DNA of 13,503 nucleotides from Desulfovibrio sp. (GTDB lineage: Bacteria; Desulfobacterota; Desulfovibrionia; Desulfovibrionales; Desulfovibrionaceae): assembly GCA_028708195.1 (NCBI GenBank), contig JAQVZK010000020.1, positions 1 through 13,503 of the forward strand, read 5' to 3'. Both the position numbers and the translations under genes were made by a program. The notes under the pieces are model-generated. The model saw only the letters and a program-made list of their open reading frames with translations. It was not told the DNA's origin and searched no databases. Of this stretch, positions 1 through 13,503 are shown piece by piece; position 1 is the first letter of the stretch, and each line of letters begins with the position of its first letter.

Positions 1-989
1 CCACCGCCACCCGCCAGGGTCAGGGTAAAATCCAGACCTCGGTCTTGCAGCAGGCCGCAGGCGCGCAGCAACACGTCAAACCCCTTGGTTACGTCAAAGC
101 GCCCCAGAGCCAGCAGGCGCACAGGCCGCCGCAGGGGCACAGGTGAGGCCGAGGTGGGCACGTCAGCCAGATGCGGAAAAGAAGGGATGTCTCCACTGGA
201 GCAGTGGCAGCCCGGTGTGTCGGGCGCTGAGGCCATGCCAGAAACGACGGCAGAAACTTCGGCAGGCGCTGCCACAGAAGACGCATCGGACGCGGCAGAT
301 TCGTCAGCCAGTGGCGGCAGGGTCAGCCCGTTGTACACCAGTTCAACCTTGCCCTTGGCCTGGCCGCAGTCAAAATTTTCTATACGGGCCTTGTCCGCGC
401 CGTTGTTGGCGCGCACCAGAAAGGCCGCGTCGAGCTTTGCGCCAAGGTCAGGGTCCGCCGGTTCAAGATTGTCGCCTCGGGCGCACGTGGCAAAGGGAAG
501 CCCGGCAATGCTGCCCGCAACCCAGGCGGCGGTTGCCGTACCGCGCGGCCAGGGCGCGTAGATCATGTCAATGCCCCCCTCCTTGAAGCACCGGGCCAGG
601 TACACCCCTGCGCAAAAGGCCCAGAGGTTTTCGCCCATTGTTTCAATACAGCGCCAGCGGCGAAACATGGTGCGCCTGAAAAGGCTCCCCAGACGTAGGG
701 GGTGCGTGCATATCTGGCGCAAAAGCTCGGCCAGAATGGCAAAAATCGCCCTCGTTCCCAGGGTATGGGTTTGCCTGGCCGCCGTGCGCATTTCAGTGGA
801 GCAGTGGCGCAAGTTGGGCCCGTAGAGGCTAAAGACCGAGACCGGCAGCCTTTTTCTGAGGCCCTGTACGTCGCGAAAAATAAAGGGCTGCGTAAACAGG
901 GGGTACCACAGCAACACGCAGGCCACGTGGGGCAGTCCTGGTGCTGAGGGCTGCGGGGTGACTGGCTCGCTTGTCTTGCTTTCTGTCAT
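1..989 (-). CDS. GT4-like glycosyltransferase, partial (C-terminus beyond window edge)
   Basis: An open frame runs from an ATG at 989 off the left edge, giving 329 complete residues with no stop. An AGGAG box at 996-1000, six bases before the ATG, supports the start. The N-terminal half closely resembles the neighbouring glycosyltransferase at 2110-3456: both have VLLW(F/Y)PL near the start, then FIFR, a GEN(L/I)W block, a TATAAWVA-like block, and V-x(2)-(I/V)YN-x-LT before the second Rossmann domain. The second domain opens with LLALGRF-x(2)-TKGF, typical of the donor-binding half of GT-B enzymes. The catalytic EX7E region would lie outside the window. It probably transfers a sugar from a nucleotide-sugar donor to a lipid-linked or cell-surface acceptor in the cytoplasm; donor and acceptor cannot be told. 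The linker between the two domains is about 52 residues longer than in the paralogue and is rich in Ala, Ser and Pro. Confidence 0.85.
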   Translation of the reverse strand, partial: MTESKTSEPVTPQPSAPGLPHVACVLLWYPLFTQPFIFRDVQGLRKRLPVSVFSLYGPNLRHCSTEMRTAARQTHTLGTRAIFAILAELLRQICTHPLRLGSLFRRTMFRRWRCIETMGENLWAFCAGVYLARCFKEGGIDMIYAPWPRGTATAAWVAGSIAGLPFATCARGDNLEPADPDLGAKLDAAFLVRANNGADKARIENFDCGQAKGKVELVYNGLTLPPLADESAASDASSVAAPAEVSAVVSGMASAPDTPGCHCSSGDIPSFPHLADVPTSASPVPLRRPVRLLALGRFDVTKGFDVLLRACGLLQDRGLDFTLTLAGGG

Positions 990-1072
990 TCCTCACTCCT
1001 GAGCGTCTGCAGGGGAGCAAACTCACATTATAAACTAGGAGTAGACCTATACCTGATCGTAAGCGGCACCAG
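990..1072 (-). promoter_or_regulatory. Intergenic gap with a possible -10 box for the partial glycosyltransferase
   Basis: This 83-bp gap follows the deacetylase stop. On the minus strand it holds a perfect TATAAT at 1032-1027, about 40 bases before the downstream ATG. No convincing -35 hexamer lies 16-18 bases upstream (for example CAGGTA at the 17-base position), so a promoter here would need an activator. No terminator-like hairpin was seen. The left glycosyltransferase may be read through from the operon, from this site, or both. Confidence 0.3.
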
Positions 1073-2113
1073 TTACGGAGCTTCTTGAGGCGTATAAGCC
1101 CAGTCTCCGCATTCCGCGTTGCGGGTTGGCCGCAACAGTTCTGTGCTGTCTGGAGCCTGCGGCCCCAGAGTTTCGCGCAACTGGTCCATAGTCAGGCTGC
1201 GCACGTCCCAACGGGACGAAAGCCAGTCTGTCCAAACCAGAATTTTCTGCATAAGCTTGTCCACCGCACTGGCGTCAGGCAGGTGGGGCGCACCGCCGGG
1301 CATCATCTCCGAGGAGTGCCAGGTCAGCGACAGCACCCGCCCTCCCCTGGCCACAAAAAGCCTGGTCACGGCCTGCATGGCCCACAGGGGATGATAGACA
1401 GGCAAAAGGCTCAATGCCCCCCAGTTCTTGAAACCCGAACGCAAACCCGGAGCCACCCTGCCCACCAGACGCGGCAAAGACTGCACAAGGGGCGTCACAC
1501 TGAGGGGAACTTCAAATATACGTTTTTTTTCTACGGCTATCCAATAAGGATTGCAAGGAGCGTCAAAGTGGTCGGGGCCAGCCTTGGGCGTGGCCCCACA
1601 ATGCAGCGGACGCACCGAGGCGTCGACCTTGATTCCGGCCTGGGCCAGTAACGGCCAGAGATTTCTGTGCATATCCCACCGGCCCATGCGGAAGGATGTC
1701 AGGGGCGCGGACTGAAAGTCCCTGCCTGCGGCCATGAGGCTTTCAAGCTTGGCGGCCATGAGCGCTTCGGGCACGGCCGCCGCAGGCACGCTGGACGCGT
1801 TGTCGGCAAGGGCGGCGTCTGCCCCGGGGCCGTCAAGGGTCAGAGGGGGGGTATTCCAGTGGTGCAAATGCGCGCCTATTTCAGCGCCGTACCTGTCGCG
1901 CAGGCCCGCCAGCACATGGCAGGAAGGGGCGTCGGCCAACACGCTGTGCGCACAAAAAAGCGTGGGGCGCACGCCGCGTTCACACAAAGGATCAAGCCGC
2001 CCAAGGCTTGCGGTATTGGATGTCGAGTATCCCCTGCGGGCATACTGGCCGCCAAACAGCCCTTCTTCTTCCACGTCCAGGCTGACGGCAAGGTAGAGCG
2101 TTGGGCGACTCAT
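1073..2113 (-). CDS. Divergent polysaccharide deacetylase (NodB-fold, WalW-like)
   Basis: The 346-residue protein is probably a carbohydrate esterase that removes N-acetyl (or O-acetyl) groups from a polysaccharide or glycolipid sugar. Visible motifs are SLDVEEEG at 11-18 (D13 and E15 where NodB enzymes have their catalytic Asp/metal-ligand Asp), IGAHLHHWNTPP at 79-90 (metal-binding His cluster), FRMGRW at 141-146 (the usual Arg motif) and LTWHSSEMMPGG at 263-274 (late His motif seen in WalW-type members). The start at 2113 is preferred over a longer ATG at 2188: it makes a four-base ATGA overlap with the upstream glycosyltransferase stop and has a GAGG box at 2118-2121. No signal peptide is obvious, so it may act in the cytoplasm on a precursor. 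The family call is good; the substrate is unknown. Confidence 0.75.
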   Translation of the reverse strand: MSRPTLYLAVSLDVEEEGLFGGQYARRGYSTSNTASLGRLDPLCERGVRPTLFCAHSVLADAPSCHVLAGLRDRYGAEIGAHLHHWNTPPLTLDGPGADAALADNASSVPAAAVPEALMAAKLESLMAAGRDFQSAPLTSFRMGRWDMHRNLWPLLAQAGIKVDASVRPLHCGATPKAGPDHFDAPCNPYWIAVEKKRIFEVPLSVTPLVQSLPRLVGRVAPGLRSGFKNWGALSLLPVYHPLWAMQAVTRLFVARGGRVLSLTWHSSEMMPGGAPHLPDASAVDKLMQKILVWTDWLSSRWDVRSLTMDQLRETLGPQAPDSTELLRPTRNAECGDWAYTPQEAP

Positions 2114-3456
2114 GCTTCCTCTTTTATGGTGCAATCCTGGTCGAAACAGGCTGTCTGCTCCGGCTGATTGAGGGCGGCTCTGGCGCATTCATTCACGTAC
2201 AGATCATAGACCGCCGTAATGTTGCGCGTGGGATCAAAAAGTTTTTCAACATGGGCGCGCCCCGCCTCGGCCATAGCCAGGGCCGCGTTACGGTCAGACA
2301 CCATGCGGCGCACGGCGTCCGCCAGAGCGCGAGGATCGCGCTGGGGCACAAGCAGGCCGGTTTCACCGTCGATAATCACTTCGGCAATGCCGCACACGTC
2401 GGTGGCAATAACCGGCATGCGGTGCGAAAGCGCCTCCATGATCACATTGGGTATGCCGTCGCGGTCGCCGTTGGAGTGCACCACGCTGGGCATGATGAGC
2501 ATGTCATAGTCCAGCATGAAACTGCATATTTTGTCATGGGGGATAAAGCCGGGCATATCGACAACCTGGGCAAGCCCCAGGTCGTCCCGCATTTTGACGA
2601 GCTTATGGTGCCAGTTGCCATCGCCAACCAGGGTCAGGGTCACGGGCACCTGTTCACGCCGCAGGCGTGCCATAGCCGTGAGCAATTCGGGAAACCCCTT
2701 GGTACGCGCAAAACGCCCCACCGCAAGCAGCCTGTAGGGTGCCTGCATGGGCATGGCGCACTGCCCACAAGGCCGAAAGGTAAGGCTGTTGTAGATGGCG
2801 TGCACTTTACCCGTGGCGTCGGGAGGGCAAAATTTGCGCAGCCACTGAACATTGGTGCGATTGTTGGTGCGGATGAACAACGCGTCGCGCGATTTTTCGC
2901 GCAGCAGGCCGTCTTCAGGATAAATGTCTCCGGCGCGGCCGGTGAAGGCAAAGGGAATGCCCGTCACCCGTGAGGCCACCCAGGCGGCTGTTGCCGGGCC
3001 ATTGGCCCAGGCCGCGTGGATAAGCTGCACACCGTCTTCACGGCACTGCTCGGCCAGCAGAAAGCCCGCCAAAAAGCACCAGATATTTTCCCCCAGGGCT
3101 TCAACATTGCGCATGCGGCGAAAAAACCCTTCACGCATGAGCCGCCAAACGGCCCGGGGTTTCTGCCGCAGGGCACGCCCAAAGGCCGCCAGAACGCAGC
3201 AGGTTGCCTTGATGCCCATACGGCGCACAGGGCCGTCAAAGGCCAGCATTTCTTCGCTGCAACCCTTGAGATTTTCGCCATACATGCTGTAGGCAAACAC
3301 CGGCAAGCCCCGCTGCCTGAGCTGTACGACCTCACGAAAAATAAATGTCTCGGAAGACAATGGAAACCAGAGAAGCACATAGGCGATGACCGGCGGAACG
3401 CTCTGCCGACCGCTTTGTTCGCCCGCTTCTGTGGCAAGGCCACTGGTTAAAGGCAT
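2110..3456 (-). CDS. GT4-like glycosyltransferase
   Basis: A complete 448-residue GT-B glycosyltransferase. The N-terminal acceptor domain covers about residues 20-235. The donor domain begins at YRLLAVGRFARTKGF (241-255), followed by LTLVGDG (274-280), MPGFIPHDKI (301-310) and the signature DGIPNVIMEAL around D333 and E341. The spacing matches the GT4 EX7E motif with Asp in the first position. GETGLLVP (364-371) is also typical of GT4. It should use a nucleotide-sugar donor with retention of configuration. The start at 3456 is chosen because GGAG (3463-3466) lies six bases upstream. A longer frame from 3489 would start inside the loop of a perfect hairpin (3478-3501) and has no ribosome site. 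It follows the oxoamine synthase by 57 bases, overlaps the deacetylase by ATGA, and is a paralogue of the partial gene at the left edge. Confidence 0.9.
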   Translation of the reverse strand: MPLTSGLATEAGEQSGRQSVPPVIAYVLLWFPLSSETFIFREVVQLRQRGLPVFAYSMYGENLKGCSEEMLAFDGPVRRMGIKATCCVLAAFGRALRQKPRAVWRLMREGFFRRMRNVEALGENIWCFLAGFLLAEQCREDGVQLIHAAWANGPATAAWVASRVTGIPFAFTGRAGDIYPEDGLLREKSRDALFIRTNNRTNVQWLRKFCPPDATGKVHAIYNSLTFRPCGQCAMPMQAPYRLLAVGRFARTKGFPELLTAMARLRREQVPVTLTLVGDGNWHHKLVKMRDDLGLAQVVDMPGFIPHDKICSFMLDYDMLIMPSVVHSNGDRDGIPNVIMEALSHRMPVIATDVCGIAEVIIDGETGLLVPQRDPRALADAVRRMVSDRNAALAMAEAGRAHVEKLFDPTRNITAVYDLYVNECARAALNQPEQTACFDQDCTIKEEA

Positions 3457-3477
3457 ATAGGTCTCCGCAGCAAACGA

Positions 3478-3501
3478 GAACCGGGCCATCAGGCCCGGTT
3501 C
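3478..3501 (-). terminator. Perfect 10-bp hairpin after the oxoamine synthase: terminator or attenuator
   Basis: GAACCGGGCC at 3478-3487 pairs with GGCCCGGTTC at 3492-3501 across a four-base loop. It lies 12 bases past the oxoamine synthase stop on the minus strand. The RNA after the stem reads TCGTTTGCTG, a poor U tract, so partial termination or 3'-end protection is more likely than a full stop. This could set a higher transcript level for the first gene than for the three after it. Confidence 0.6.
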
Positions 3502-3513
3502 GGAATGCTGTTC

Positions 3514-4833
3514 TTATTCGCCCAGGTATTCTTCGGCGTGTTCGCTCTTGTATTTTTCTACAATGGCCTGTGCCTTGGGAATTTCTTCTTTCACGGCGTC
3601 CAGTGCCTTGCGGATATGCTCTTCCGTATGGGCGGCCGAAAGGAAGAAGCGCAGCCTGTCGGTGCCTTCCTTCACTGCCGGGAAGGTAATGGGCATCACA
3701 TAGATGCCGCGCTTGAACAACGCGTTGGACAAGAAGCCCGCAACCATAGGATCGCCCACCATGACAGGCACGATGGCGTAGCCCTGGGCCGAACCCGTGT
3801 CGAGGCCGATACTTGCGGCGTATTCCACAAAAAACCGGGATATGCCCTGCAGCTTCTGCACCCGCTCCGGTTCGCGCAGCATGATGTCCAGCGCCTTGCG
3901 GCAGGCCACTGCGATAACAGGGGGCATACCCACACTGAAAACAAAGCCAGGGGAGCCGTACTTCAGAAATTCCACAAGCTCATGCTTGCCAGCGATAAAG
4001 CCGCCGCAACCGCACATGGATTTGGAGAGCGTGCTCATCCACATATCCACGTCATTGGGGTCAATACCAAAATATTCGTGCGCGCCACGCCCGGTCTTGC
4101 CAAGCACGCCCAACGAGTGGGCTTCGTCCACCAGCAGCATGCAGTCATACTGCTTTTTCAACTGGATGATGCGGGGCAGATCGGGGATGTTACCGTCCAT
4201 GCTGAACAGGCCCTCAGTGACGATAATGGCCCGCTTGTGCTCGGCACGCTTGGCCTTGAGCATTTCTTCAAGGGCGTCGCAGTCGTTGTGATTGTAGGAG
4301 TAGCGCGCGGCGTGCGACAGGCGCGCGCCCTGCACCAGGGAGTTGTGCGCCAGGCCGTCATGAAAGATGGCGTCGCGGTGCCCAAGCAAAAAGCCCAAGG
4401 TGGACACGTTGGTGGCGTGCCCGCTCACATAGACGATGCAGTCCTCCACGCCATAAAGGTCGGCGAAAGCACGCTCAAGTTCACGGTGCGGCGGGCGCTC
4501 GCCGCCCATAAGGCGGCTGGCTCCGGCAGACGTGCCGTAAATGGTGGCGGCGCGGGTAACGGCCTCGGTTATTTCCGGATGGGCGTTAATGTCCAGATAG
4601 TCGTAGGTGGAAAAGTTCAGATATTCCCTGCCGCCAATGAGTGTGGTGGCCTTGGCCGCACGCTCGTGGCAAAGAAAAAGAGGATTTTCCATCCCCATCT
4701 TGGCTCCCATCTCCACAAGCCGGTCAAAGGCGAGCTTGGAACGCATGCGACTAAAGCCGCCCGCGGAGCTTTCTGTGGTGGCAGTTTTTGATGCCACCTC
4801 TTGGCCAGCCTGACAGGAATGGTCGTTCTTCAT
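3514..4833 (-). CDS. Alpha-oxoamine synthase (PLP-dependent; serine palmitoyltransferase/BioF/KBL family)
   Basis: This 439-residue fold-type I PLP enzyme should condense an amino acid with an acyl thioester, releasing CO2 and giving an amino-ketone. Motifs in order: YLNFSTYDYLDI (71-82), SGHATN (137-142), DGLAHNSLVQGARLS (159-173), TEGLFSMDGNIPDLP (206-220), VDEAHSLGVLGKTGRG (235-250, with D236 and H239 near the PLP ring) and STLSKSMCGCGG (267-278), where K271 should form the Schiff base. The DPNDVDMWMSTLSKS stretch and the RLS/HND spacing look more like serine palmitoyltransferases than BioF, from memory of those families. Length is normal apart from a 30-residue polar N-terminal extension. 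GAGGA at 4840-4844, six bases from the ATG, supports the start. It leads the left block and is divergent from the polyketide-like gene. No biotin genes are present, so a BioF role is unlikely. Amino acid and acyl substrate are unknown. Confidence 0.88.
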   Translation of the reverse strand: MKNDHSCQAGQEVASKTATTESSAGGFSRMRSKLAFDRLVEMGAKMGMENPLFLCHERAAKATTLIGGREYLNFSTYDYLDINAHPEITEAVTRAATIYGTSAGASRLMGGERPPHRELERAFADLYGVEDCIVYVSGHATNVSTLGFLLGHRDAIFHDGLAHNSLVQGARLSHAARYSYNHNDCDALEEMLKAKRAEHKRAIIVTEGLFSMDGNIPDLPRIIQLKKQYDCMLLVDEAHSLGVLGKTGRGAHEYFGIDPNDVDMWMSTLSKSMCGCGGFIAGKHELVEFLKYGSPGFVFSVGMPPVIAVACRKALDIMLREPERVQKLQGISRFFVEYAASIGLDTGSAQGYAIVPVMVGDPMVAGFLSNALFKRGIYVMPITFPAVKEGTDRLRFFLSAAHTEEHIRKALDAVKEEIPKAQAIVEKYKSEHAEEYLGE

Positions 4834-4923
4834 GCCTAATCCTCTTAAATTTGTCCAAAAAATGCACCGGCCCGCAGCCCTGCAGCAAGCAACAGGGCAG
4901 AGGGCGCAACTTTGTAAGGATTC

Positions 4924-4952
4924 AGTATAGCCAAACCTTCAACCTATGGCAA
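4924..4952 (-). promoter_or_regulatory. Sigma70-type promoter for the left (minus-strand) block
   Basis: On the minus strand, TTGCCA (4952-4947) and TATACT (4929-4924) are separated by exactly 17 bases; each matches the consensus at five of six positions. Transcription would start near 4917, leaving a leader of about 85 bases before the oxoamine synthase ATG at 4833. The leader contains a six-base-pair inverted repeat, GCCCTG (4877-4882) and CAGGGC (4893-4898), whose function is unknown. Confidence 0.6.
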
Positions 4953-4984
4953 GTGCGGAATGTCAAATACTCACCCGCCCGCCA

Positions 4985-5001
4985 TAGTGGCCGCCACACT
5001 A
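4985..5001. promoter_or_regulatory. Dyad in the divergent promoter region, possible operator
   Basis: TAGTG (4985-4989) and CACTA (4997-5001) form a perfect inverted repeat with a seven-base spacer, centred at 4993. A nested inverted repeat GTGGC-C-GCCAC occupies 4988-4998 or so. It lies between the two divergent promoters, where a shared regulator could bind. No regulator gene is in the window, and short dyads occur by chance in GC-rich DNA. Apart from this and the two promoters, nothing else was recognised in the 349-bp gap 4834-5182. Confidence 0.3.
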
Positions 5002-5086
5002 CATTTCACGCCGTTTCTGACAGCATTTCAGCGCAAATACCCGCTGCGACGCCCCGCTGCACTGGCTTGTTTTCTGCCTCCGCGTC

Positions 5087-5115
5087 TGGACAAGGGAAGC
5101 GATATATTCTATAAT
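5087..5115 (+). promoter_or_regulatory. Sigma70-type promoter for the right (plus-strand) block
   Basis: TGGACA (5087-5092) and a perfect TATAAT (5110-5115) are separated by 17 bases, an almost ideal sigma70 arrangement. The start would be near 5122, giving a leader of about 60 bases before the ATG at 5183. The first part of the leader can fold: GCCGA (5126-5130) is complementary to TCGGC (5142-5146). The site also limits how far upstream the polyketide-like gene can begin. Confidence 0.7.
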
Positions 5116-5182
5116 TCCGGCCTTAGCCGACACATTCCTCTTCGGCCCAATCGATCAACCGCGCGCCACAGGCCCGAGTTTT

Positions 5183-8100
5183 ATGCAGCAAGACCCCGTC
5201 CAAACACACGGCACTTCGCACGGCAAGCCTCGCGCCACTGACAGCGCCGTCCTTCAGGACGGGCTGCTTGTTGTCTCGCCCCCGTGTGCCGAGTTTGCCT
5301 GCTCTGTCTCTGAAAATCCGGTTCTGGCCGAATCCCGCGTCCCTTCAGGCCAGCTTTGCGCTCAGGCGCTGGTTCGCCAATGCCTTGACTGGCTCAGGCT
5401 GGTAGAAAATCCGGGGCCTGTCATGCTCTGGCTCTGCTGGAACGAGTCCGGCACGCCAGCCCATCTGGCCCAGGCCCTGAGCCTTTCCGTGGAGGGTTTG
5501 CAGAATCTCTGGCGCATGGGCCCTGTGCGCCTGCAGTTCGAGTCTTTTCGGCCTGGCCAGTTGCACGAGAGCGAAAAGGTGTTGCGCACGGGCCTTGATC
5601 AGGGCGCGGATGCGGCAAAAAACATTTACCCCTGCCTGGCCAGCACGGCGGGCCGCACCGATACTATGGGTGTGAGCATGCCGCAGTGCCCCAATTATTA
5701 TAATTCCGACGCGGACAGGGCGCTGGGCGACGAAGAACCCATGTGCCCGCAAGCCGGACGCGTACCCACCATTCTTTTACTGGACTTTATGGCGAATAAC
5801 ACGCCAAACCTGCAGTGCCAGCCTCTTTTGCTGAGCCTGCCGGCCCCGACGCCACCGTGCTGCGATACGCTGCGGTGCCGCAAGAGTCCACAGCAGGAGG
5901 CAGCGGAACCCCGGGCTGAAGCCGCGCCGCCCCTTTGGCAACCCTGCGACCCAGAACCCGGGGCAAAACATATTCAGGTCACTGCTCCTGACACCACAAA
6001 AATGGCCGACTACCAAAATATGCCTGAAGAGCTCATTCTTGATGGCGTGCGCTACGCAACCCTGCCTCAGGATGGCCTCATGTGGCGCATGGGCACCACC
6101 AACCCCCTGTGGCGGCAAGACCTTTTTTCTCTGCCGCACAATCCTGACGCTGCAGCCCTGGCCACTCTTGCCGGGCGCGGCCTCTGGATCGCCCCCGAGA
6201 CAGACGCTCCGCCCCTGGCGGTCATGTGCTGCGGCATGGGTTCGGTCTGGCCGGGCATGGGCCGCGAACTCTATGACAATTTCCCCGTGGCGCGCGCCGC
6301 TATGGACCGCATCGCCGCCGTGGCCGACTGGGACGTGCTCGGCCTGATGGATGAAAAAAATGTGGAAAAAGTCAGCCCCACGCGCTGGCAGTCCCCCTAT
6401 GTTTTCATGCTTGAGTTCGCGCAGTGGAGCGTGCTTTCTTCACTGGGGCTCAAGCCTTCGCTGTTCTGCGGGCACAGCCTGGGCGAGATGATCGCCTTGT
6501 GTTTCTGCGGCATCTACACGCCGGAGGTGGCCTGGCATATTCTGGACACCCGCGCTGTCCACATGGCCGAACTGGAAGCTGCCGCCACCCGTGAAATGGG
6601 CATGATGGCCGTGCACGCCAGCGCCGAGATCATTGAAGAAGCGCGCGCCACCTGGCCCGCCCTCTACGTCTCCAACTACAATACGCCGCAGCAGTTTATT
6701 TTGAGCGGGCCGCGCGAAGTGCTGATGGAGGCCCGCAAGAGCCTGCGCAAGCGGCGCATACCGGCCATCGTGCTCAACCTGAACCTGGCTTTCCACCATC
6801 CGAGCATGCGCGTACTCCGCGACCTTTCGCTGCGCCGCCTCAATGCGCTTGAAATGCACGCCCCCCGTCACCCCATGCTGGGCTGCACCACCACGGAATT
6901 TTATCCTGACGACCAGCCCTCCATCTGCCAGCATATCACCGACCTGGATGAAAACTCCGTACGCTGGACAGAATGCGTGCACACCGCCTGGCGCAGAGAC
7001 GGCATCCGCCATTTTCTGGAACTGGGCCCACAGGACACCCTCTGCAGCCTTGTCAATGACAACGAGCCGAAAGCTCTCTGCCTGACCGCAGGGCGCAAGG
7101 GCAAGGAAGTGGAAGGCATGCGCCAGACATGCGCCCGCCTCTACTCCCTCGGGCATTTGCGCAAAAGCGCCATCCGGGCGCGCATCGCCGATGTGCGCGG
7201 CGGCAAAGACGCTGCCGAGGCCGCGCGCACGCCGTTGCCGCATTGTGGCCTTGTGCCGGTGGATTCGCCGGACTGCAACATGGGCTGCGCCACGGCAACA
7301 CCAGAAACCGCACCGGCAAAAACCGACGCCCCGGCTTCTGTCACAGCTTCTGCCACCGCCACAGCTTCTGGCCCGGACGCAGCCTCCGCCGCAGCAAAAA
7401 CCCTTGGTTCCATAACGCCCGCAGCCGCTCTGAGCGTTGTGCTCGACGTGCTGGCCCGCGCCTGCGGCCGCCCGGTGGAAGAACTGCGACCAGACCTGGA
7501 CCTGCGCTACGACCTGGCCCTGCGCTCCAGCCGTTTTCCCCTGATTATTCAGGAAGTGGAAAAGGCGCTGGATATCACCGTCAATTTTGAAGATCTGCTC
7601 CAGGTATCCACGGTGGGCGACCTTGCCCGCGTTTTGGGCGCTGCAAACCCTGGCGAAACGGCTGATGCCGATACTTCCGAAGCAACACGTCAGGTGGCGG
7701 TTCGTCAGACTGCCCTTGTTCAGGCGTGCGCGCCCTTGTGCCGCTTCAGCCCCGTGCGGGAACACGCGAAAGGCGAAAACAATGCCGGGGCCGACACTGC
7801 CGGGCAGGAAGTTCCCCCAGTTCCGCTGCCGCCCCTGCCGCTGCCGCTGGACCCCTGCGGTCAGGGCCTTGCCATCCGCCAGGGAGATATTCTGGCCCTG
7901 TTGTTCTTTGATCCTGACCTGCTGCCCTCTCTCATGAACGGCCTTGCACCGCTTGGCTGCGTGCTGGCCGTGCCGCGCGGTCAGGTTGAGGCCTGCGCGC
8001 CGCTGGCCCGTGCGGGATCACGCATTGTGCCTTTTGACCTTGACATGCGCGTCCCCCAAAATATCGACGGGGCACGCTCGCTGGCCCAGGAAACCAGCGC

Positions 8101-9580
8101 CGCGCTGGACGCTCTGGCAAAGAAAGAAGGCCGGGTTGGCGGCCTCATATTTGCGCCTGCCGCCAGCGATGCAAACGGTGAAAAAGAAACCGGCCCGGCA
8201 GCGTCGGCCACCGCCTTTGTCTCTGCTGGCATGCCCGACCTGCTGGCTGCGGCCATGCGGAGCCTTTCGCCCCACGGGCTGCGCTATGCCTGCCTGTGCA
8301 GTCTGCTGCAGCCCACGGCTGAAAACCTGCGCGGCGACGGCCCGCTGGAAAAAAAGCTTGAAGAACTGGGCGGGCAGGCTCGCGTTGCCACCAGGGGCAT
8401 ACGCCTGCTGGAAAAAACCCTGCGCGCCGGACTCAATGATTGGGGCGACATGCTGGCCCGTGAACTTCTGCACGGTACCGCTTCGCAAGTGATATGGGTG
8501 CGCCCCACTGTTCTGCCCGTGGTCGCGGCTTCTGCCGCCCGCGAAGGTGGCGCAGACTCCCATACGCCCGCCGCCAGGAACAGAAAGGGGCACGGGCTCA
8601 TCATTCTGGAGAAACCCCGCGACTATCCCTTGGTTTTCCCCGACCCGCAGCCGCCTTACCGGGCCACTTCCACGCTTTTTCAGGGCTGCTGCCATTACTC
8701 GCGGTTTGCCGACCCCGATCTGACCCTTCACGGCGGTCAGCCCGGCAATGCCCTTGACGACATGCCCTGGCTGCCGCCAAGCCGCGCCCTGGCTGCCCTT
8801 CTTGAAGCCTCAAGCCTCTGGCTGCCCTGGTTGACAGCCACCGGCTTTTCAGACCTTCGGTTTTATGATCTCCCCTCACTGCCGCCCGGCATCACCCGCG
8901 AATGCCGGGTTGCCGTGGAGGCGGAGCCGTGGATCATGCAGGACGGCGTCATGACGCGCCAGTGCCGCAGCACTCTGGATGTGCAGGAACTTTCAGCCAA
9001 CGGCAGACACCTTGAACGCTACGCCCCCGTGGCCGAAGGCATGACCATTCTGGCCGCCGCCAATGGGCAGGTGCCCCCCCTGTGGCCGCATGACGATGAG
9101 AGTCTTCACGCAAAGCAGGCGCAGCAGACCCTGAATACGGGTGCTGTTTATGATTCCGTGGGGTTTGGCGCGCCCTGGCGCATGCTTGAAAACTTCACTA
9201 TTCTGCCTAACCACAGATATACCGCACTATTGGACCATACGCATGCAAGCATTGCCCCCGAAGGCAATAAAGGCTATAAAGACGTCCTGTATGTTGTAGA
9301 GGGGATGGCACAAGCCGCGTGGATGGCTATAACCCAGGAAGCCGGAGAGGCAGAGGCCATTGCCACTGTCATACGGAACTGGCGCTTACACGCTGCGGGA
9401 TTCATCCGTTTTGGGGGCGAAAGAGGCAAAGGGCCGTGGCGCATAATGATGCGGCGTTCCTGGTCTGCCCCAAATCTGTTGCGCTATGACGGTCAGGCCA
9501 TTGACGAGAGCGGCCGGGTTTTCCTTACGCTCCACCATCTTGAATTTAACCGGCGGGACACCGGGGCCGCCGCGCTTTAG
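5183..9580 (+). CDS. Polyketide-synthase-like multidomain protein: AT-ACP-degenerate KR-DH, no ketosynthase
   Basis: The 1465-residue protein has five regions. Residues 1 to about 335 are unrecognised, with a Cys/Pro-rich stretch at 160-270. An acyltransferase spans about 345-650: GHSLGE with nucleophile S432, R457 exactly 25 residues later as in FabD (S92/R117), and LAFHH with H538 as catalytic His; the FHx form suggests malonyl use. An Ala/Thr-rich linker runs to about 745. An acyl carrier domain (about 746-815) has DLALRSSRF, S782 being the likely phosphopantetheine site in place of the usual DSL. A ketoreductase-like region (about 890-1110) has neither a clear GxGxxG nor YxxxK, so is probably inactive. 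A double-hotdog dehydratase-like region (about 1140-1460) includes LLDHTH (H1352) and VVEGMAQ (E1373), resembling the FabZ active site. The ATG at 5183 has only a weak ribosome site but is the first start after the promoter. No ketosynthase is present, so one must act in trans. Probably cytoplasmic. Confidence 0.85.
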   Translation: MQQDPVQTHGTSHGKPRATDSAVLQDGLLVVSPPCAEFACSVSENPVLAESRVPSGQLCAQALVRQCLDWLRLVENPGPVMLWLCWNESGTPAHLAQALSLSVEGLQNLWRMGPVRLQFESFRPGQLHESEKVLRTGLDQGADAAKNIYPCLASTAGRTDTMGVSMPQCPNYYNSDADRALGDEEPMCPQAGRVPTILLLDFMANNTPNLQCQPLLLSLPAPTPPCCDTLRCRKSPQQEAAEPRAEAAPPLWQPCDPEPGAKHIQVTAPDTTKMADYQNMPEELILDGVRYATLPQDGLMWRMGTTNPLWRQDLFSLPHNPDAAALATLAGRGLWIAPETDAPPLAVMCCGMGSVWPGMGRELYDNFPVARAAMDRIAAVADWDVLGLMDEKNVEKVSPTRWQSPYVFMLEFAQWSVLSSLGLKPSLFCGHSLGEMIALCFCGIYTPEVAWHILDTRAVHMAELEAAATREMGMMAVHASAEIIEEARATWPALYVSNYNTPQQFILSGPREVLMEARKSLRKRRIPAIVLNLNLAFHHPSMRVLRDLSLRRLNALEMHAPRHPMLGCTTTEFYPDDQPSICQHITDLDENSVRWTECVHTAWRRDGIRHFLELGPQDTLCSLVNDNEPKALCLTAGRKGKEVEGMRQTCARLYSLGHLRKSAIRARIADVRGGKDAAEAARTPLPHCGLVPVDSPDCNMGCATATPETAPAKTDAPASVTASATATASGPDAASAAAKTLGSITPAAALSVVLDVLARACGRPVEELRPDLDLRYDLALRSSRFPLIIQEVEKALDITVNFEDLLQVSTVGDLARVLGAANPGETADADTSEATRQVAVRQTALVQACAPLCRFSPVREHAKGENNAGADTAGQEVPPVPLPPLPLPLDPCGQGLAIRQGDILALLFFDPDLLPSLMNGLAPLGCVLAVPRGQVEACAPLARAGSRIVPFDLDMRVPQNIDGARSLAQETSAALDALAKKEGRVGGLIFAPAASDANGEKETGPAASATAFVSAGMPDLLAAAMRSLSPHGLRYACLCSLLQPTAENLRGDGPLEKKLEELGGQARVATRGIRLLEKTLRAGLNDWGDMLARELLHGTASQVIWVRPTVLPVVAASAAREGGADSHTPAARNRKGHGLIILEKPRDYPLVFPDPQPPYRATSTLFQGCCHYSRFADPDLTLHGGQPGNALDDMPWLPPSRALAALLEASSLWLPWLTATGFSDLRFYDLPSLPPGITRECRVAVEAEPWIMQDGVMTRQCRSTLDVQELSANGRHLERYAPVAEGMTILAAANGQVPPLWPHDDESLHAKQAQQTLNTGAVYDSVGFGAPWRMLENFTILPNHRYTALLDHTHASIAPEGNKGYKDVLYVVEGMAQAAWMAITQEAGEAEAIATVIRNWRLHAAGFIRFGGERGKGPWRIMMRRSWSAPNLLRYDGQAIDESGRVFLTLHHLEFNRRDTGAAAL

Positions 9581-9584
9581 CGCG
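9571..9584 (+). repeat. Short perfect palindrome over the stop codon of the polyketide-like gene
   Basis: CGCGCT (9571-9576) and AGCGCG (9579-9584) form an inverted repeat with a two-base spacer, including the TAG stop. No U tract follows, so a standard intrinsic terminator is not supported. It may protect the upstream mRNA or be chance in GC-rich sequence. Confidence 0.35.
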
Positions 9585-9614
9585 TCTCCGCCACAGTGAC
9601 AGTGATTATACCAA

Positions 9615-9629
9615 CGCGCTAACTGCGCG
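9615..9629 (+). repeat. Hairpin in the leader of the outer membrane factor gene
   Basis: CGCGC (9615-9619) and GCGCG (9625-9629) pair across a five-base loop, ending seven bases before the AAAGGG ribosome site (9637-9642) of the next gene. Its arms are also complementary to parts of the palindrome at 9571-9584, so the two could form alternative structures. No promoter was recognised in the 68-bp gap, so the downstream genes are probably co-transcribed from 5087-5115. Confidence 0.35.
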
Positions 9630-9648
9630 AGATCGTAAAGGGTGCCTG

Positions 9649-11115
9649 ATGCCGCATAACACACGTCCTCTCTTTTCGGCGCGGTCATATCTGCCGTTGC
9701 TGCTCGTTATGACCCTATTTTTCTCCGCATGCGCCTCTAACAAGGCGGGGTTGAAATCTCCGGAACTTCCGGCCAGGCACTGGCTGGAGGAGGCTCCGGG
9801 TGTCCCCGTGGAAAACAAGGACAAACTCGCTGCGGCCGTGCCCAATCTGTACGATCCCGGCAAAGTTTTTACCTATGAAGACTGCGTCTTTTTGACCATC
9901 CAGCAGTCGCCCCTTCTGGTCAACAGCGCGGTTGACCTGGAAATCAAACGCGTGGCCCTTACAGACGCCGTATGGAAGTACCTGCCAGAACCCCGCATGA
10001 CCATGCAGGTCACCAACAACCTTACGCGCTACAACATGGACCACAAGGACACCCCCGGCGACTACGGTCGCACCAAGTTCACCGTGGGTTTTTACGCGTC
10101 CTTTCCCAACCCTGTGGCCTCCTATTTTGAGCATCAGGTGCAGAAGGCCATGGTCAACCTGGCCATATCCACGCACCGCAAGGCCGTGGGCGAAGCCATC
10201 TACAAGATCGCCCAGGCATACCTGCAGTTGCAGGCGCAAAAAAAGATCGTCAAGGTACAAAGAGAGCTGCTGCCCATCGGCAAGGAGCTGATTTCCTACT
10301 GGCAGCAGGTGGAAGCAGTGGACGGCCGTCAGGGCGTTTCCCTCAATCTGGCCATGCAGCACCAGCGCGAGCTTGAGCTGATGGTGGAACAGACCAAGAT
10401 GAAGGAAACCATGCAGCTTACCCAGCTGAAAATCCTCGCCGGTGTGGACCCGCAGCAGAAGATGGATGTGGACACTGCCAGTGCGGATGAAATCCTGAAA
10501 GGCTTCAATGGCCGCAGCCTCAAATGGGACGACCGCTGGGGCACCACTGAGGACGACCTGCTTTTGCGTGGTCAGATCAAACTGGGCGACTATAATATCA
10601 TGGTTGCCTGGGCCCAGTATATTCCCGACATGAGCATTGCCGTCAACAACAGCCCGCCCTCGGGCCAGTATCAGCCTTCCAGCGGCAGTGAAGACACCTT
10701 TTTGCACCTGAACTTCAGCTTTCCCCTGCTGGACTGGGGCCGCCGTTACCGTGGCGTACAGACAGCCCGCATGATGAAGGCCCAGGCTTTTCACGAGATG
10801 GCCCGCAAACGTACCGACTACTCCAACAAATGGCTGCAGGCGGAACAGAATGTGGCCCTGTCTGAAACCGAACTCAAGATCGCGCGTACGCGTTTTGACA
10901 CCTCGGCCATGCAGTACAAAGAAGCCCACATTTCCTTCAATGAAGGCATTGCAGAGCTGCCCAGCGTCGCCGACAAGCAAGAAGCTATGGTGCAGGCCCA
11001 GATCGCCCTTATTCGGGCTGAACTGACCTGCGAGCTGGCCCATCTTGAATGGATGTACATTTCTACCTCGCTTCAGGAGCGTTTCCTCGGCCTGCCGGCC
11101 AGGGAGGTACTGTAA
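9649..11115 (+). CDS. TolC-family outer membrane factor lipoprotein
   Basis: The 488-residue protein should form the trimeric outer membrane and periplasmic channel of an export system. It starts with a basic then hydrophobic signal and a lipobox-like FSAC, with C28 the predicted lipidated residue. The -3 position is Phe rather than the usual Leu, so this is a slightly weak match. The rest has the two-fold TolC layout: long helical segments with many Gln, Lys, Glu and Ala (about 160-270 and 370-470), alternating with strand-like parts such as GRTKFTVGFYASFPNP and the LHLNFSFPLLDWGRRYRGVQ stretch. LLDWGRR resembles the LFDWGR motif common in this family. AAAGGG six bases upstream supports the start. 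The stop overlaps the adaptor start by one base (TAATG), so the two are translationally coupled. The substrate is unknown; context suggests a glycolipid, polyketide or polysaccharide. Confidence 0.85.
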   Translation: MPHNTRPLFSARSYLPLLLVMTLFFSACASNKAGLKSPELPARHWLEEAPGVPVENKDKLAAAVPNLYDPGKVFTYEDCVFLTIQQSPLLVNSAVDLEIKRVALTDAVWKYLPEPRMTMQVTNNLTRYNMDHKDTPGDYGRTKFTVGFYASFPNPVASYFEHQVQKAMVNLAISTHRKAVGEAIYKIAQAYLQLQAQKKIVKVQRELLPIGKELISYWQQVEAVDGRQGVSLNLAMQHQRELELMVEQTKMKETMQLTQLKILAGVDPQQKMDVDTASADEILKGFNGRSLKWDDRWGTTEDDLLLRGQIKLGDYNIMVAWAQYIPDMSIAVNNSPPSGQYQPSSGSEDTFLHLNFSFPLLDWGRRYRGVQTARMMKAQAFHEMARKRTDYSNKWLQAEQNVALSETELKIARTRFDTSAMQYKEAHISFNEGIAELPSVADKQEAMVQAQIALIRAELTCELAHLEWMYISTSLQERFLGLPAREVL

Positions 11116-12062
11116 TGGCGCGTTATCCCCGCACCGTATTTTCGGCCTGCAAGGGGGCACTGGGGTTTGCTCTGGCTCTGTTGGTCAGTCTGGCCTTCAC
11201 GGGTTCCGCCTTTGCCGCAGATGGCGGCAAGACCGGGGTGACCATCCTTACAGGCAAAGTCGTAACGACAGTCACCCGGGCCGTACCCATGCCCTTCAGC
11301 GGCGTGGTGGACACCGTGCTGGTCAAGCCCGGCGAAGCCGTTGAAGAAGGCGCGCCTCTTATGCGCTATCACCTGTATGAAGATGCAGAACGCACCCTGC
11401 AGCGCGAAGTCATGCAGGGCCCCAGCACAGAAAATCTCAAAAAAGAAGTGCTGGACCTTGAACGTAAACTTGCTGAAACCATTGCCCAGCGCAACAAGGC
11501 TCGCCAGCTTGCGGCCTCCGGCCTTGGCTCGCGCCAGGCTTCAGGCCGACTTGAAGAAGACGTGAGCTCTTTGCAACGCCGCATTGAACTGACCCGCACC
11601 ACCATACAAAAAGCCGAAAACAGCTTTGCCATCCGCCTTAAAGAGCTGAGCAGCTATTTCGGCCAGGAGATCAAGGAAGGGGAGATTCTACCAGAAACCC
11701 TCACCCTGACCTCGCCCCTCACAGGCTACGTGCTGTCGCTGGATACCACACTCAACCCCGACACTCTGCTGGCTGCTGGCAGCGTGCCCATCAGGGTGGG
11801 CCAGCTTGACCCCGTGCTTATTCAGGTGCCTGTTTATGAAGCAGAAGTCAGCGGCATCAGCGCGGGCGACAAGGTAGAGGTGGAGATTCCATCCCTCAAC
11901 AACAAGGTTTTTCCGGGCAAAGTTACAGAAATATCATGGGTTTCCAACGACATGAGCGTGGCCAACCCTTCCTACTACACCGTTGAAGTCACCGTGCCCA
12001 ACCCGAATCTGGAGCTCAAGCCCGGCTTCAAGGCTGTGGTACGGTTCGGGGGCGGCAGGTAA
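11115..12062 (+). CDS. HlyD/RND-type periplasmic adaptor (membrane fusion protein)
   Basis: The 315-residue protein is an exported periplasmic adaptor that should link an inner-membrane transporter to the TolC-like channel. Residues 1-34 form a signal peptide ending in AFA before ADGG. A split biotinyl-lipoyl-like domain follows: the first half is about 45-90 (PMPFSGVVDTVLVKPGEAVEEG) and the second about 195-228 (LTSPLTGYVLSLD). Between them is a predicted coiled-coil hairpin (about 103-182). The beta-barrel region is about 230-310, ending in LELKPGFKAVVRF. The start at 11115 is chosen over an in-frame ATG at 11049 because it has AGGGAGGT six bases upstream, overlaps the preceding stop by one base and begins a clean signal peptide. 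There is no N-terminal anchor apart from the cleavable signal. No ABC ATPase, permease or RND pump lies next to it, which is unusual. Confidence 0.85.
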   Translation: MARYPRTVFSACKGALGFALALLVSLAFTGSAFAADGGKTGVTILTGKVVTTVTRAVPMPFSGVVDTVLVKPGEAVEEGAPLMRYHLYEDAERTLQREVMQGPSTENLKKEVLDLERKLAETIAQRNKARQLAASGLGSRQASGRLEEDVSSLQRRIELTRTTIQKAENSFAIRLKELSSYFGQEIKEGEILPETLTLTSPLTGYVLSLDTTLNPDTLLAAGSVPIRVGQLDPVLIQVPVYEAEVSGISAGDKVEVEIPSLNNKVFPGKVTEISWVSNDMSVANPSYYTVEVTVPNPNLELKPGFKAVVRFGGGR

Positions 12063-12072
12063 AGCCCCCCGC

Positions 12073-13488
12073 ATGAAGCTCAAGAGCATCCCCCGCAGGC
12101 TCGGCTACATTCTGGGCGCGCAGTGGACGCGCGACCTGGCATGGGCAGCCTTTACCATTCTGCTGGCCCGCCGCAGCCCGGATATTATGGGGCAGGTGGT
12201 GCTGGCCCTCACCTTTGGTTACCTGGTTAAAACCATAGCCGATGTGGGGCTTAATGATTTTCTGCTGTCTACCTTTGCCCGGCGTGAGGGCCGCCCCCGC
12301 GCCCTGCTTGGCGAGGTTACCTGGCTCAAGCTTGTCGTGCTGGTGCTGGCGCTGGCCGTCACGTGGTTTGTAACAGGCTGGCAGGGGTACAGCCCCGAAC
12401 TACGCCTTATCGTGCTGTGCATCGCCGCCGGGCTTGGCCTCGACGGTGTGAGCGACTCTTTTTTTGCCCTCTGTCAGGCACGCGGCCGCCAGGATGTGGA
12501 AATGCGCATCCGGGTGCCCTCGGCCCTTATTGGCATAGGTTTCGGCATCACCTGTGTCATGATGGGCGCACCGCCCATCATCATCGCACTCTACAAGCCC
12601 ATTGAATCCATACTGTGCATCATTTTTGCCCTCACCGCCCTTGGTCGCAACCCTCTTTCCGGGGTGGGCCGGGCAGGCATGCTCGATCTGGCGCGGCAGA
12701 TGAAACATGGCCTTATCTTTACCTGCATGGCCGCCTGCGCCATGTTCTATAACAAGATCAATGTCATTTTTCTCAAGCAGTACGGCGGCAATGCGGACGT
12801 GGGCGGATACGGCGTGGCCTGGGAAACCGTGGAGGGCCTCTCTGTTCTTGTATCAAGCGCACTTCTTGGCAAGGTGATCTTTCCGCTGCTGGCCAAACTC
12901 TGGCAGCAGGATAAAAACGCCTTTCGCCAGCTTGCTGGGCAGACGGCCCGATCGTTGTGGGCGGCATCCTTGCCCATCATCTTTCTCATTTGTGTGGAAA
13001 GTGACCGGTTTCTGCCTTTTATCTACGGCCCAAGCTATGAAAGCGCCGTGCGTGCGCAACAGTTGCTTACTCCCTGTCTGGCCACGGCCTTTCTGCATAA
13101 CCTCGCCGCCTATGCGATGATAGGCATGCGCCGCCACCGCCTTTTGCTCGTCTTTTACATCAGCGGACTTGTTCTCAACATTATCTGCTGCATGACGCTT
13201 ATACCGGCCATGCCTCTGGAAGGCGCGGCGCTCTCTCTTACCATCACCAAGGTTTGGGTTGCCATACTCACCGTGGGCTTTTTTCAGTGGACGACCCGCC
13301 CAATGAGCGCGGCGCAATGGCTGCTTATGCTGGCAACCGCCGGAGTGAGCATCGCCTTGTGGTGGGGGACAGGTAAAATTGCCCCCCGTGAAGTCGCTGA
13401 AGCCGTAGGGCTTCTCCCCCTGCTGGCCCTGTTCTGGAGGTGGCGACCGCCCGCGCCCTTTGAAAAAAAGAGCACCCAGGCCCAGTAG
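12073..13488 (+). CDS. Polysaccharide/lipid flippase, Wzx/MATE-like integral membrane protein
   Basis: The 471-residue hydrophobic protein has roughly 12 predicted transmembrane segments, including ones near residues 15-30, 40-60, 80-100, 110-125, 150-175, 180-200, 215-235, 260-285, 300-320, 350-370, 375-400 and 410-430. It ends in a charged cytoplasmic tail. Features such as ESDRFLPFIYGPSYESAV (about 315-332) and an early ADVGL motif are typical of Wzx-type O-unit or exopolysaccharide flippases of the MOP superfamily. It should turn a lipid-linked saccharide, or the lipid product of the locus, across the inner membrane. The start at 12073 lies 10 bases after the adaptor stop and has no clean ribosome site, so translation may be coupled. 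A longer in-frame ATG at 11983 lies inside the adaptor gene and adds a non-hydrophobic extension. No terminator is visible in the 15 bases after it. Confidence 0.8.
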   Translation: MKLKSIPRRLGYILGAQWTRDLAWAAFTILLARRSPDIMGQVVLALTFGYLVKTIADVGLNDFLLSTFARREGRPRALLGEVTWLKLVVLVLALAVTWFVTGWQGYSPELRLIVLCIAAGLGLDGVSDSFFALCQARGRQDVEMRIRVPSALIGIGFGITCVMMGAPPIIIALYKPIESILCIIFALTALGRNPLSGVGRAGMLDLARQMKHGLIFTCMAACAMFYNKINVIFLKQYGGNADVGGYGVAWETVEGLSVLVSSALLGKVIFPLLAKLWQQDKNAFRQLAGQTARSLWAASLPIIFLICVESDRFLPFIYGPSYESAVRAQQLLTPCLATAFLHNLAAYAMIGMRRHRLLLVFYISGLVLNIICCMTLIPAMPLEGAALSLTITKVWVAILTVGFFQWTTRPMSAAQWLLMLATAGVSIALWWGTGKIAPREVAEAVGLLPLLALFWRWRPPAPFEKKSTQAQ

Positions 13489-13503
13489 CAATTTTGCATG
13501 TTA

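Follow-up and report, generated by a model that had tools for sequence, protein, structure and literature searches.

The window analysed here is the whole of a 13,503-nucleotide contig (JAQVZK010000020.1, C50, one of 344) from a Desulfovibrio sp. metagenome-assembled genome of 2.3 Mb and 78% completeness. It carries eight genes in two divergent operons: an alpha-oxoamine synthase (AOS), a glycosyltransferase (GT2), a deacetylase (DAC) and a second glycosyltransferase (GT1) on the reverse strand, and a polyketide synthase (PKS)-like protein, an outer membrane factor (OMF), a periplasmic adaptor (MFP) and a MOP-family flippase (WZX) on the forward strand. At about even confidence, we read these as the central pair of operons in a pathway that is core to the genus but split over several loci, and whose product would be a glycosylated amino-ketone (ceramide-like) lipid of the envelope. 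Gene content, linkage and co-retention are established by sequence comparison, and the gene set and divergent layout seen in a first-pass annotation of the same DNA were confirmed. The locus holds the central operons; the N-acyltransferase and reductase are encoded elsewhere in the genome.

Linkage of the two operons and a probable split exporter

Loci around the PKS-like gene were compared in 79 genomes, 75 of the same genus and four belonging to two genera close by; the set leaves out the window's own genome, G070, G077 and G111. AOS and PKS were scored as neighbours when divergent with 5' ends no more than 3.5 kb apart. They are neighbours in 53 of the 79 loci (51 same-genus, two of one nearby genus) and apart in 14, each read over at least 4.5 kb of upstream sequence; contig ends leave 12 undecided. 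OMF, MFP and WZX all follow the PKS gene on the same strand within 12 kb in 72/79 loci, the remaining seven being contig ends. Among the 53 neighbour loci, DAC is present in 45 and an amidotransferase in 49, with upper bounds of 49 for GT2 and 50 for GT1, since the two glycosyltransferases cross-match each other. The proposal of the first-pass annotation that the two blocks belong together, for which it had suggested a neighbourhood comparison, is borne out by these counts and by the retention of AOS in 13 of the 14 genomes whose blocks are separated, including the single-contig 1.4-Mb G113.

The separated loci could also be taken to mean that the two blocks are unrelated neighbours, the left one being a glycosyltransferase operon for an exopolysaccharide and the right one making and exporting a PKS-derived product. 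In five such genomes that were read (G113, G072, G097, G049 and G091), the left block, AOS-GT2-DAC-GT1-amidotransferase, indeed stands together elsewhere as a unit of its own, in G091 without a DAC match. We nevertheless regard this explanation as improbable, given that both blocks persist in the same genome when apart (13/14), that sister genera join both functions in a single cluster, and that the AOS-PKS pair recurs as a second divergent copy in G065. Whole-genome searches of 79 same-genus genomes, the window's included, recovered the PKS-like gene (E < 1e-120) in 75, AOS (at least 67% identity) in 76 and WZX in all 79, three of these via short end pieces. Equally core, at loci other than the window's, are a MacB-type permease with its ATPase (MacB at E < 1e-45 in 76/79) and a GNAT-family acyltransferase (78/79) paired with an SDR-family reductase.

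In G164, from another genus of the same family, a cluster of ~34 kb holds all of these parts. A 2477-aa PKS (KS-AT-DH-ER-KR in the part scanned) lies upstream of an AOS of 50.5% identity, together with export genes (MacB, ATPase, OMF, MFP and a WZX of 37% identity), glycan genes (a glycosyltransferase, DAC at 37%, GT2 at 42%, the amidotransferase at 57% and a sugar-phosphate transferase), GNAT (46.5%), SDR, a radical-SAM-like gene and further genes of glycan type. This arrangement is likely ancestral. G225 and G252 likewise gather PKS, GNAT, SDR, amidotransferase, GT2, DAC and WZX in one cluster. Because the blocks are kept together and a sister genus groups the same functions in one cluster, the best reading is the earlier suggestion that the genes would make, glycosylate, deacetylate and export one envelope molecule.

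The same annotation had credited the locus with its own self-contained exit route, which does not hold: no MacB permease or ATPase is encoded in the window, and the homologous MacB lies at another locus. Where same-genus loci were read, MacB and its ATPase occur without OMF and MFP, and the window's OMF and MFP without MacB and ATPase, as complementary halves. In all six sister genomes queried, the best MFP match and the sole OMF match fall inside a homologous MacB-bearing cluster (assignments to the MacB-linked subfamily that rest on 21-30% identity), as does the genome-wide best match of the own-genome MacB. By homology, then, MFP, OMF and MacB correspond to one sister-genus exporter. As in MacAB-TolC-type systems, a MacB-like permease, an ATPase, a MacA/HlyD-like MFP and a TolC-like OMF are contiguous in G164, G167 and G214; unlike in those systems, the window's genus splits the parts over two loci. 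At the MacB locus, the ABC ATPase and a GT4 domain share a single open reading frame (ORF) of ~650 aa in the own genome and G093 (L171:10724-12694, L173:3332-5296), the G113 counterpart having 482 aa. A deacetylase paralogue (43-49%) also lies near MacB, along with a kinase recognised by eye as HldE-like (L171:4934-5944, L177, L179, L181).

Chemistry predicted for the oxoamine synthase and the PKS-like protein

In a small tree of 21 sequences (IQ-TREE, LG+G4, ultrafast bootstrap), the Escherichia coli serine palmitoyltransferase (SPT; the single SPT reference), BioF and Kbl group with the enzymes of G167 and G214 at support 100, and the window enzyme and RkpG-like enzymes fall outside. Every RkpG-like and window-type AOS in the comparison carries HNS in place of the HAS of the other enzymes, and R(L/V)RFF close to its C-terminus. 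Phylogeny and motifs thus place the window AOS in a PKS-linked RkpG-like clade, apart from SPT, BioF and Kbl. A plain BioF/Kbl role was discarded on the strength of this placement and of an NCBIfam bioF score of 348 bits, below the cut-off of 426. The G167 and G214 enzymes were dropped as orthologues since they group with SPT, which makes G164, not G167, the key comparison. A second AOS, 50-56% identical, occurs in 17 same-genus genomes (e.g., G053:C1:970209-971318). In the smallest genomes (G113, G084, G049 and G090) the window-type AOS is the sole oxoamine synthase matched by the AOS query (E ≤ 1e-3); should the GNAT-SDR pair of these genomes depend on an amino-ketone, the window-type AOS would be its likely source.

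Against solved structures, the AOS scores best with a BioF/Kbl-type enzyme (245 bits), up to 214.5 bits with SPT and ~99 bits with CAI-1 synthase. The last value bears on the idea of a secreted small amino-ketone, a signal or pigment of CqsA- or prodiginine-like type leaving through the tripartite system. Prodiginine PigH/RedN follows a similar logic of AOS and ACP. The low score relative to the best BioF/Kbl-type match, and the presence of glycosyltransferases, a deacetylase and a MOP flippase, which such a product would not lead one to expect, make this explanation very unlikely.

In a plasmid collection, 690 records match the AOS, and the best among the matches listed are pyridoxal phosphate (PLP) enzymes of 45-52% identity. 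Of the seven regions read out of these 690, five place the AOS relative next to a type I PKS, at one gene's distance from it or within the same protein. Four of the five are capsule-type loci with the AOS next to or one gene from the PKS (S. meliloti, 45% identity; Pseudomonas TMW, 48%; Paraburkholderia, 47%; Caballeronia, 49%). On a Planktothrix plasmid (L190:3581-11179), a complete type I PKS carries an RkpG-like AOS as its C-terminal domain. The Acidisoma region has the AOS with an SDR, a glycosyltransferase and capsule genes, with no PKS in the stretch read, and the Methylobacterium record is without annotation around the AOS relative. We read the S. meliloti genes as rkpA, rkpG and rkpH from their order (PKS, AOS, SDR, capsule genes); the record itself gives no such names.

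These neighbourhoods lend weight to an alternative modelled on the rkp-1 region of Sinorhizobium (RkpA PKS/fatty acid synthase, RkpG AOS, RkpH SDR), in which the AOS product would be a lipid anchor or carrier holding a surface polysaccharide, and the glycan would be built on undecaprenyl phosphate and flipped by WZX. The window resembles that region in its AOS, which is of the same clade and 45% identical to the S. meliloti enzyme with HNS and RLRFF, and in the company this AOS keeps, a PKS-type AT-ACP protein in an envelope glycan setting; Bac_transf sugar transferases in the G164 and G157 loci point the same way. It differs in that the window PKS is without KS, ER and a working KR, and no complete KS-AT-DH-ER-KR-ACP synthase of RkpA type is adjacent. 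A capsule ABC exporter and capsule export genes are also absent from the window, a MOP flippase and MFP/OMF standing instead. No polymerase, OPX, PCP or Kps-type transporter occurs among the window proteins, and unlike in a Wzx/Wzy pathway neither a Wzy polymerase nor an initiating sugar transferase is found among them; in the flanks of four relatives none of these was noticed either, by eye and without a family-library scan. We consider this alternative rather unlikely.

The PKS-like protein had been described in the first-pass annotation as a polyketide-like AT-ACP-KR-DH enzyme. Domain scans found no ketosynthase (KS) in the window proteins, and structure matches in a fold comparison covering residues 275-1465 start at the KS-AT linker. 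Lacking a KS, the protein is, on its domain composition, unable to elongate a chain alone. No ER was found in 5183-9580, unlike in the S. meliloti PKS-like protein, which has both KS and ER. A ketosynthase, which the annotation had suggested looking for just outside the window, is encoded twice in the 78% complete genome, both times on other contigs. A phosphopantetheinyl transferase, suggested as a second gene to look for there, adjoins the full-length PKS in one sister genus (L071); none was noticed by eye in four same-genus flanks, where no dedicated search was made.

In its AT, the protein comes nearer to the PfaA-type synthases found in sister genera (33-38%) than it does to the RkpA-like one (27%), and AT, ACP and part of the DH align with KS-containing synthases of 2400-2600 aa in those genera. 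Unlike PfaA-type (polyunsaturated fatty acid) synthases, the window protein has neither KS nor NMO-type ER, a single ACP and a decayed KR. Fold comparison indicates that the DH fold is real, and the domain may be active; the His and Glu/Asp residues are present in 36/49 sequences, the dyad not being invariant. The N-terminus (about residues 1-270) is lineage-specific; this part (5183-5992) was alignable in five relatives only. Named relatives of the gene are Desulfovibrio spp. (seven loci).

N-acylation and the case for a ceramide-like product

The GNAT, of the YghO/bCerS family, adjoins a CerR-like SDR in all eight loci inspected. GNATs are 28-31% identical to E. coli YghO over almost the full length, and the SDRs 26-27% identical to the epimerase from the cluster that contains yghO. 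PMC9386255 lists yghO and a BL21 epimerase as aca and epi in dihydroceramide synthesis, and reports that a specialised ACP serves SPTs; we equated the E. coli record with BL21 by our own matching of gene order. At E up to 1, no solved structure of a bCerS-like protein was matched. Outside the genus, across 209 genomes, WZX and GNAT occur together in 42, WZX only in nine, GNAT only in two and neither in 156 (Fisher 1e-32, with relatives not independent). Counted by genus, 14 have both, two WZX only, none GNAT only and 27 neither, so that WZX is present in 14/14 GNAT genera; a weak WZX match in G029 was scored absent.

The set shares with the bacterial ceramide pathway (spt, acpR, aasR, cerR/epi, bcerS/aca; Caulobacter, E. 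coli BL21) an AOS accompanied by a non-housekeeping ACP, and the presence in one genome of both a YghO/bCerS-family acyltransferase and a CerR-like reductase. Near the E. coli cluster, too, lie LptFG-like permeases and a 'lipopolysaccharide biosynthesis protein'. The window differs in that its AOS lies outside the SPT clade, its ACP is a domain of a PKS-like protein, the genes are at separate loci and no acyl-ACP synthetase was noticed by eye.

In the pathway that we propose, the AT would load an acyl unit, possibly malonyl as judged from the conserved Arg and an AFHHP motif, onto the ACP, and any chain extension would fall to a housekeeping KS acting in trans. By the chemistry of its family, the RkpG-like AOS would join the ACP-bound acyl group to an amino acid and free a 2-amino-3-ketone, which GNAT and the CerR-like reductase could convert to a ceramide-like core. 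GT1, GT2, the amidotransferase and the deacetylase may assemble and trim a short glycan. WZX would flip the glycosylated product, and the window's MFP and OMF presumably pair with the MacB-type permease and ATPase of the third locus for delivery to the outer membrane.

Several observations weigh against this proposed pathway. On sequence identity, the resemblance to YghO and the epimerase is family-level only. The AOS does not fall with SPT in the tree, where E. coli provides the one SPT reference. It is not adjacent to GNAT-SDR in the same-genus loci read, and outside the genus RkpG-like AOS (at least 49% identity) and GNAT are only loosely associated (13 both, 12 AOS only, 31 GNAT only, 153 neither). 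BLASTP gave no match (1e-3) between WZX and the flippase-like protein that the sphingolipid cluster of E. coli encodes. G164 has a sugar-phosphate transferase, which could mean that the glycan is assembled on undecaprenyl phosphate. The MacB locus carries its own glycosyltransferase, the deacetylase paralogue and the HldE-like neighbour, and may therefore serve another substrate; these deacetylase and HldE-like genes are possibly a second glycoconjugate locus. G070 keeps OMF, MFP, WZX, AOS, a deacetylase and a glycosyltransferase with no PKS, suggesting that the latter is not always needed. The PKS search also found none in G077 (89% complete) or G111 (63%), and in G086 (80%) PKS and WZX are kept with neither AOS nor GNAT found. 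Beside these, G070 shows ~1 kb without a long ORF at the expected PKS position between OMF and AOS (L164:14060-15110).

A more ambitious form of the ceramide-like reading is rather unlikely. In it, an AT-ACP protein devoid of a KS would work with an RkpG-type AOS as its C-C bond former, and their product would represent a new lipid class, glycosylated and N-acylated amino-ketones that are core to Desulfovibrio. A MOP flippase dedicated to this lipid and a MacAB-type exporter, with the parts spread over three loci, would complete the path of a sphingolipid-like molecule from synthesis to the cell surface. What would be new compared with known systems is that head chemistry of the rkp kind is joined to ceramide-like tailoring and to an exit by way of a MOP flippase and MacAB. 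A search of the open-access literature found no paper on this Desulfovibrio locus, as judged by title, and the claim of novelty reaches no further than that search.

Layout of the window and implications for envelope lipids

Features of the window are collected in Table 1. ORFs came from a heuristic caller, not a standard gene finder, and gene names given by eye have no family search behind them. In relatives, GT1 is followed by an AsnB-like amidotransferase and HtpX (recognised by eye), i.e., the left operon runs beyond the contig end. DAC had no match in a Pfam search, and its motifs D, HxH, R and WH are conserved across 50 aligned sequences. A same-genome contig (G000:C332, L183) terminates in the last 62 WZX residues, so that the window's right end overlaps it; its other ORFs appear unrelated. 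The ferredoxin-like gene downstream of the flippase in many relatives is probably unrelated to the locus. An RNA family scan gave no match at the gathering threshold.

Table 1 Features of the 13,503-nucleotide window, with strand and supporting evidence
Feature	Position	Strand	Basis or remark
GT1, GT4-type glycosyltransferase	3..989	-	C-terminus truncated by contig end
DAC, probable divergent NodB/WalW-like polysaccharide deacetylase	1073..2188	-	Likely start near 2113
GT2, GT4 glycosyltransferase	2110..3489	-	PF00534 1.2e-34; NCBIfam EpsE-like under cut-off
AOS, PLP-dependent alpha-oxoamine synthase, PKS-linked RkpG-like clade	3514..4833	-	Tree and motifs HNS, RLRFF
Shared divergent control region	4834..5182	.	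Between AOS and PKS operons
Promoter-like site TTGCCA-17-TATACT, AOS operon	4924..4952	-	Conserved in 6 aligned sequences
Promoter-like site TGGACA-17-TATAAT, PKS operon	5087..5115	+	6 aligned sequences: -35 box conserved, -10 partly
PKS-like protein, 1465 aa	5183..9580	+	KS-AT linker and AT, ACP, KR-like remnant, DH fold
AT domain	6227..7054	+	Ser432 (GHSLGE), Arg457, His538 invariant in 49 sequences
ACP domain	7436..7633	+	Ser782, Ser783 invariant in 49 sequences
KR-like alpha/beta remnant, probably inactive	7862..8554	+	KR-like part decayed
DH domain	8606..9574	+	Candidate dyad His1183/Glu1373 by motif
OMF, TolC-family outer membrane factor, lipobox-like signal	9649..11115	+	PF02321
MFP, HlyD/MacA-like periplasmic adaptor	11115..12062	+	PF16576
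WZX, MOP-family lipid/oligosaccharide flippase	12073..13488	+	PF13440; co-occurrence with bCerS-family gene

For the 1-deoxyceramides of the Black Sea, PMC11334938 puts forward Desulfobacterota and/or Bacteroidota as the producers. As the window AOS belongs to a non-SPT clade, a Desulfovibrio lipid of such a kind could escape SPT-based surveys. Some of the relatives are animal-associated according to their record titles, and such lipids could be host-active there. How bacteria transport ceramide-like lipids across the envelope is still largely a gap in knowledge, and the authors of PMC11087976 (2024) state that they had so far identified no flippase or transporter for bacterial sphingolipids. 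The locus would bear on this gap if our reading is true: a MOP flippase whose distribution across a bacterial family nearly matches that of the bCerS-family enzyme, and a MacAB-like exporter clustered with both in G164, are testable transport candidates.

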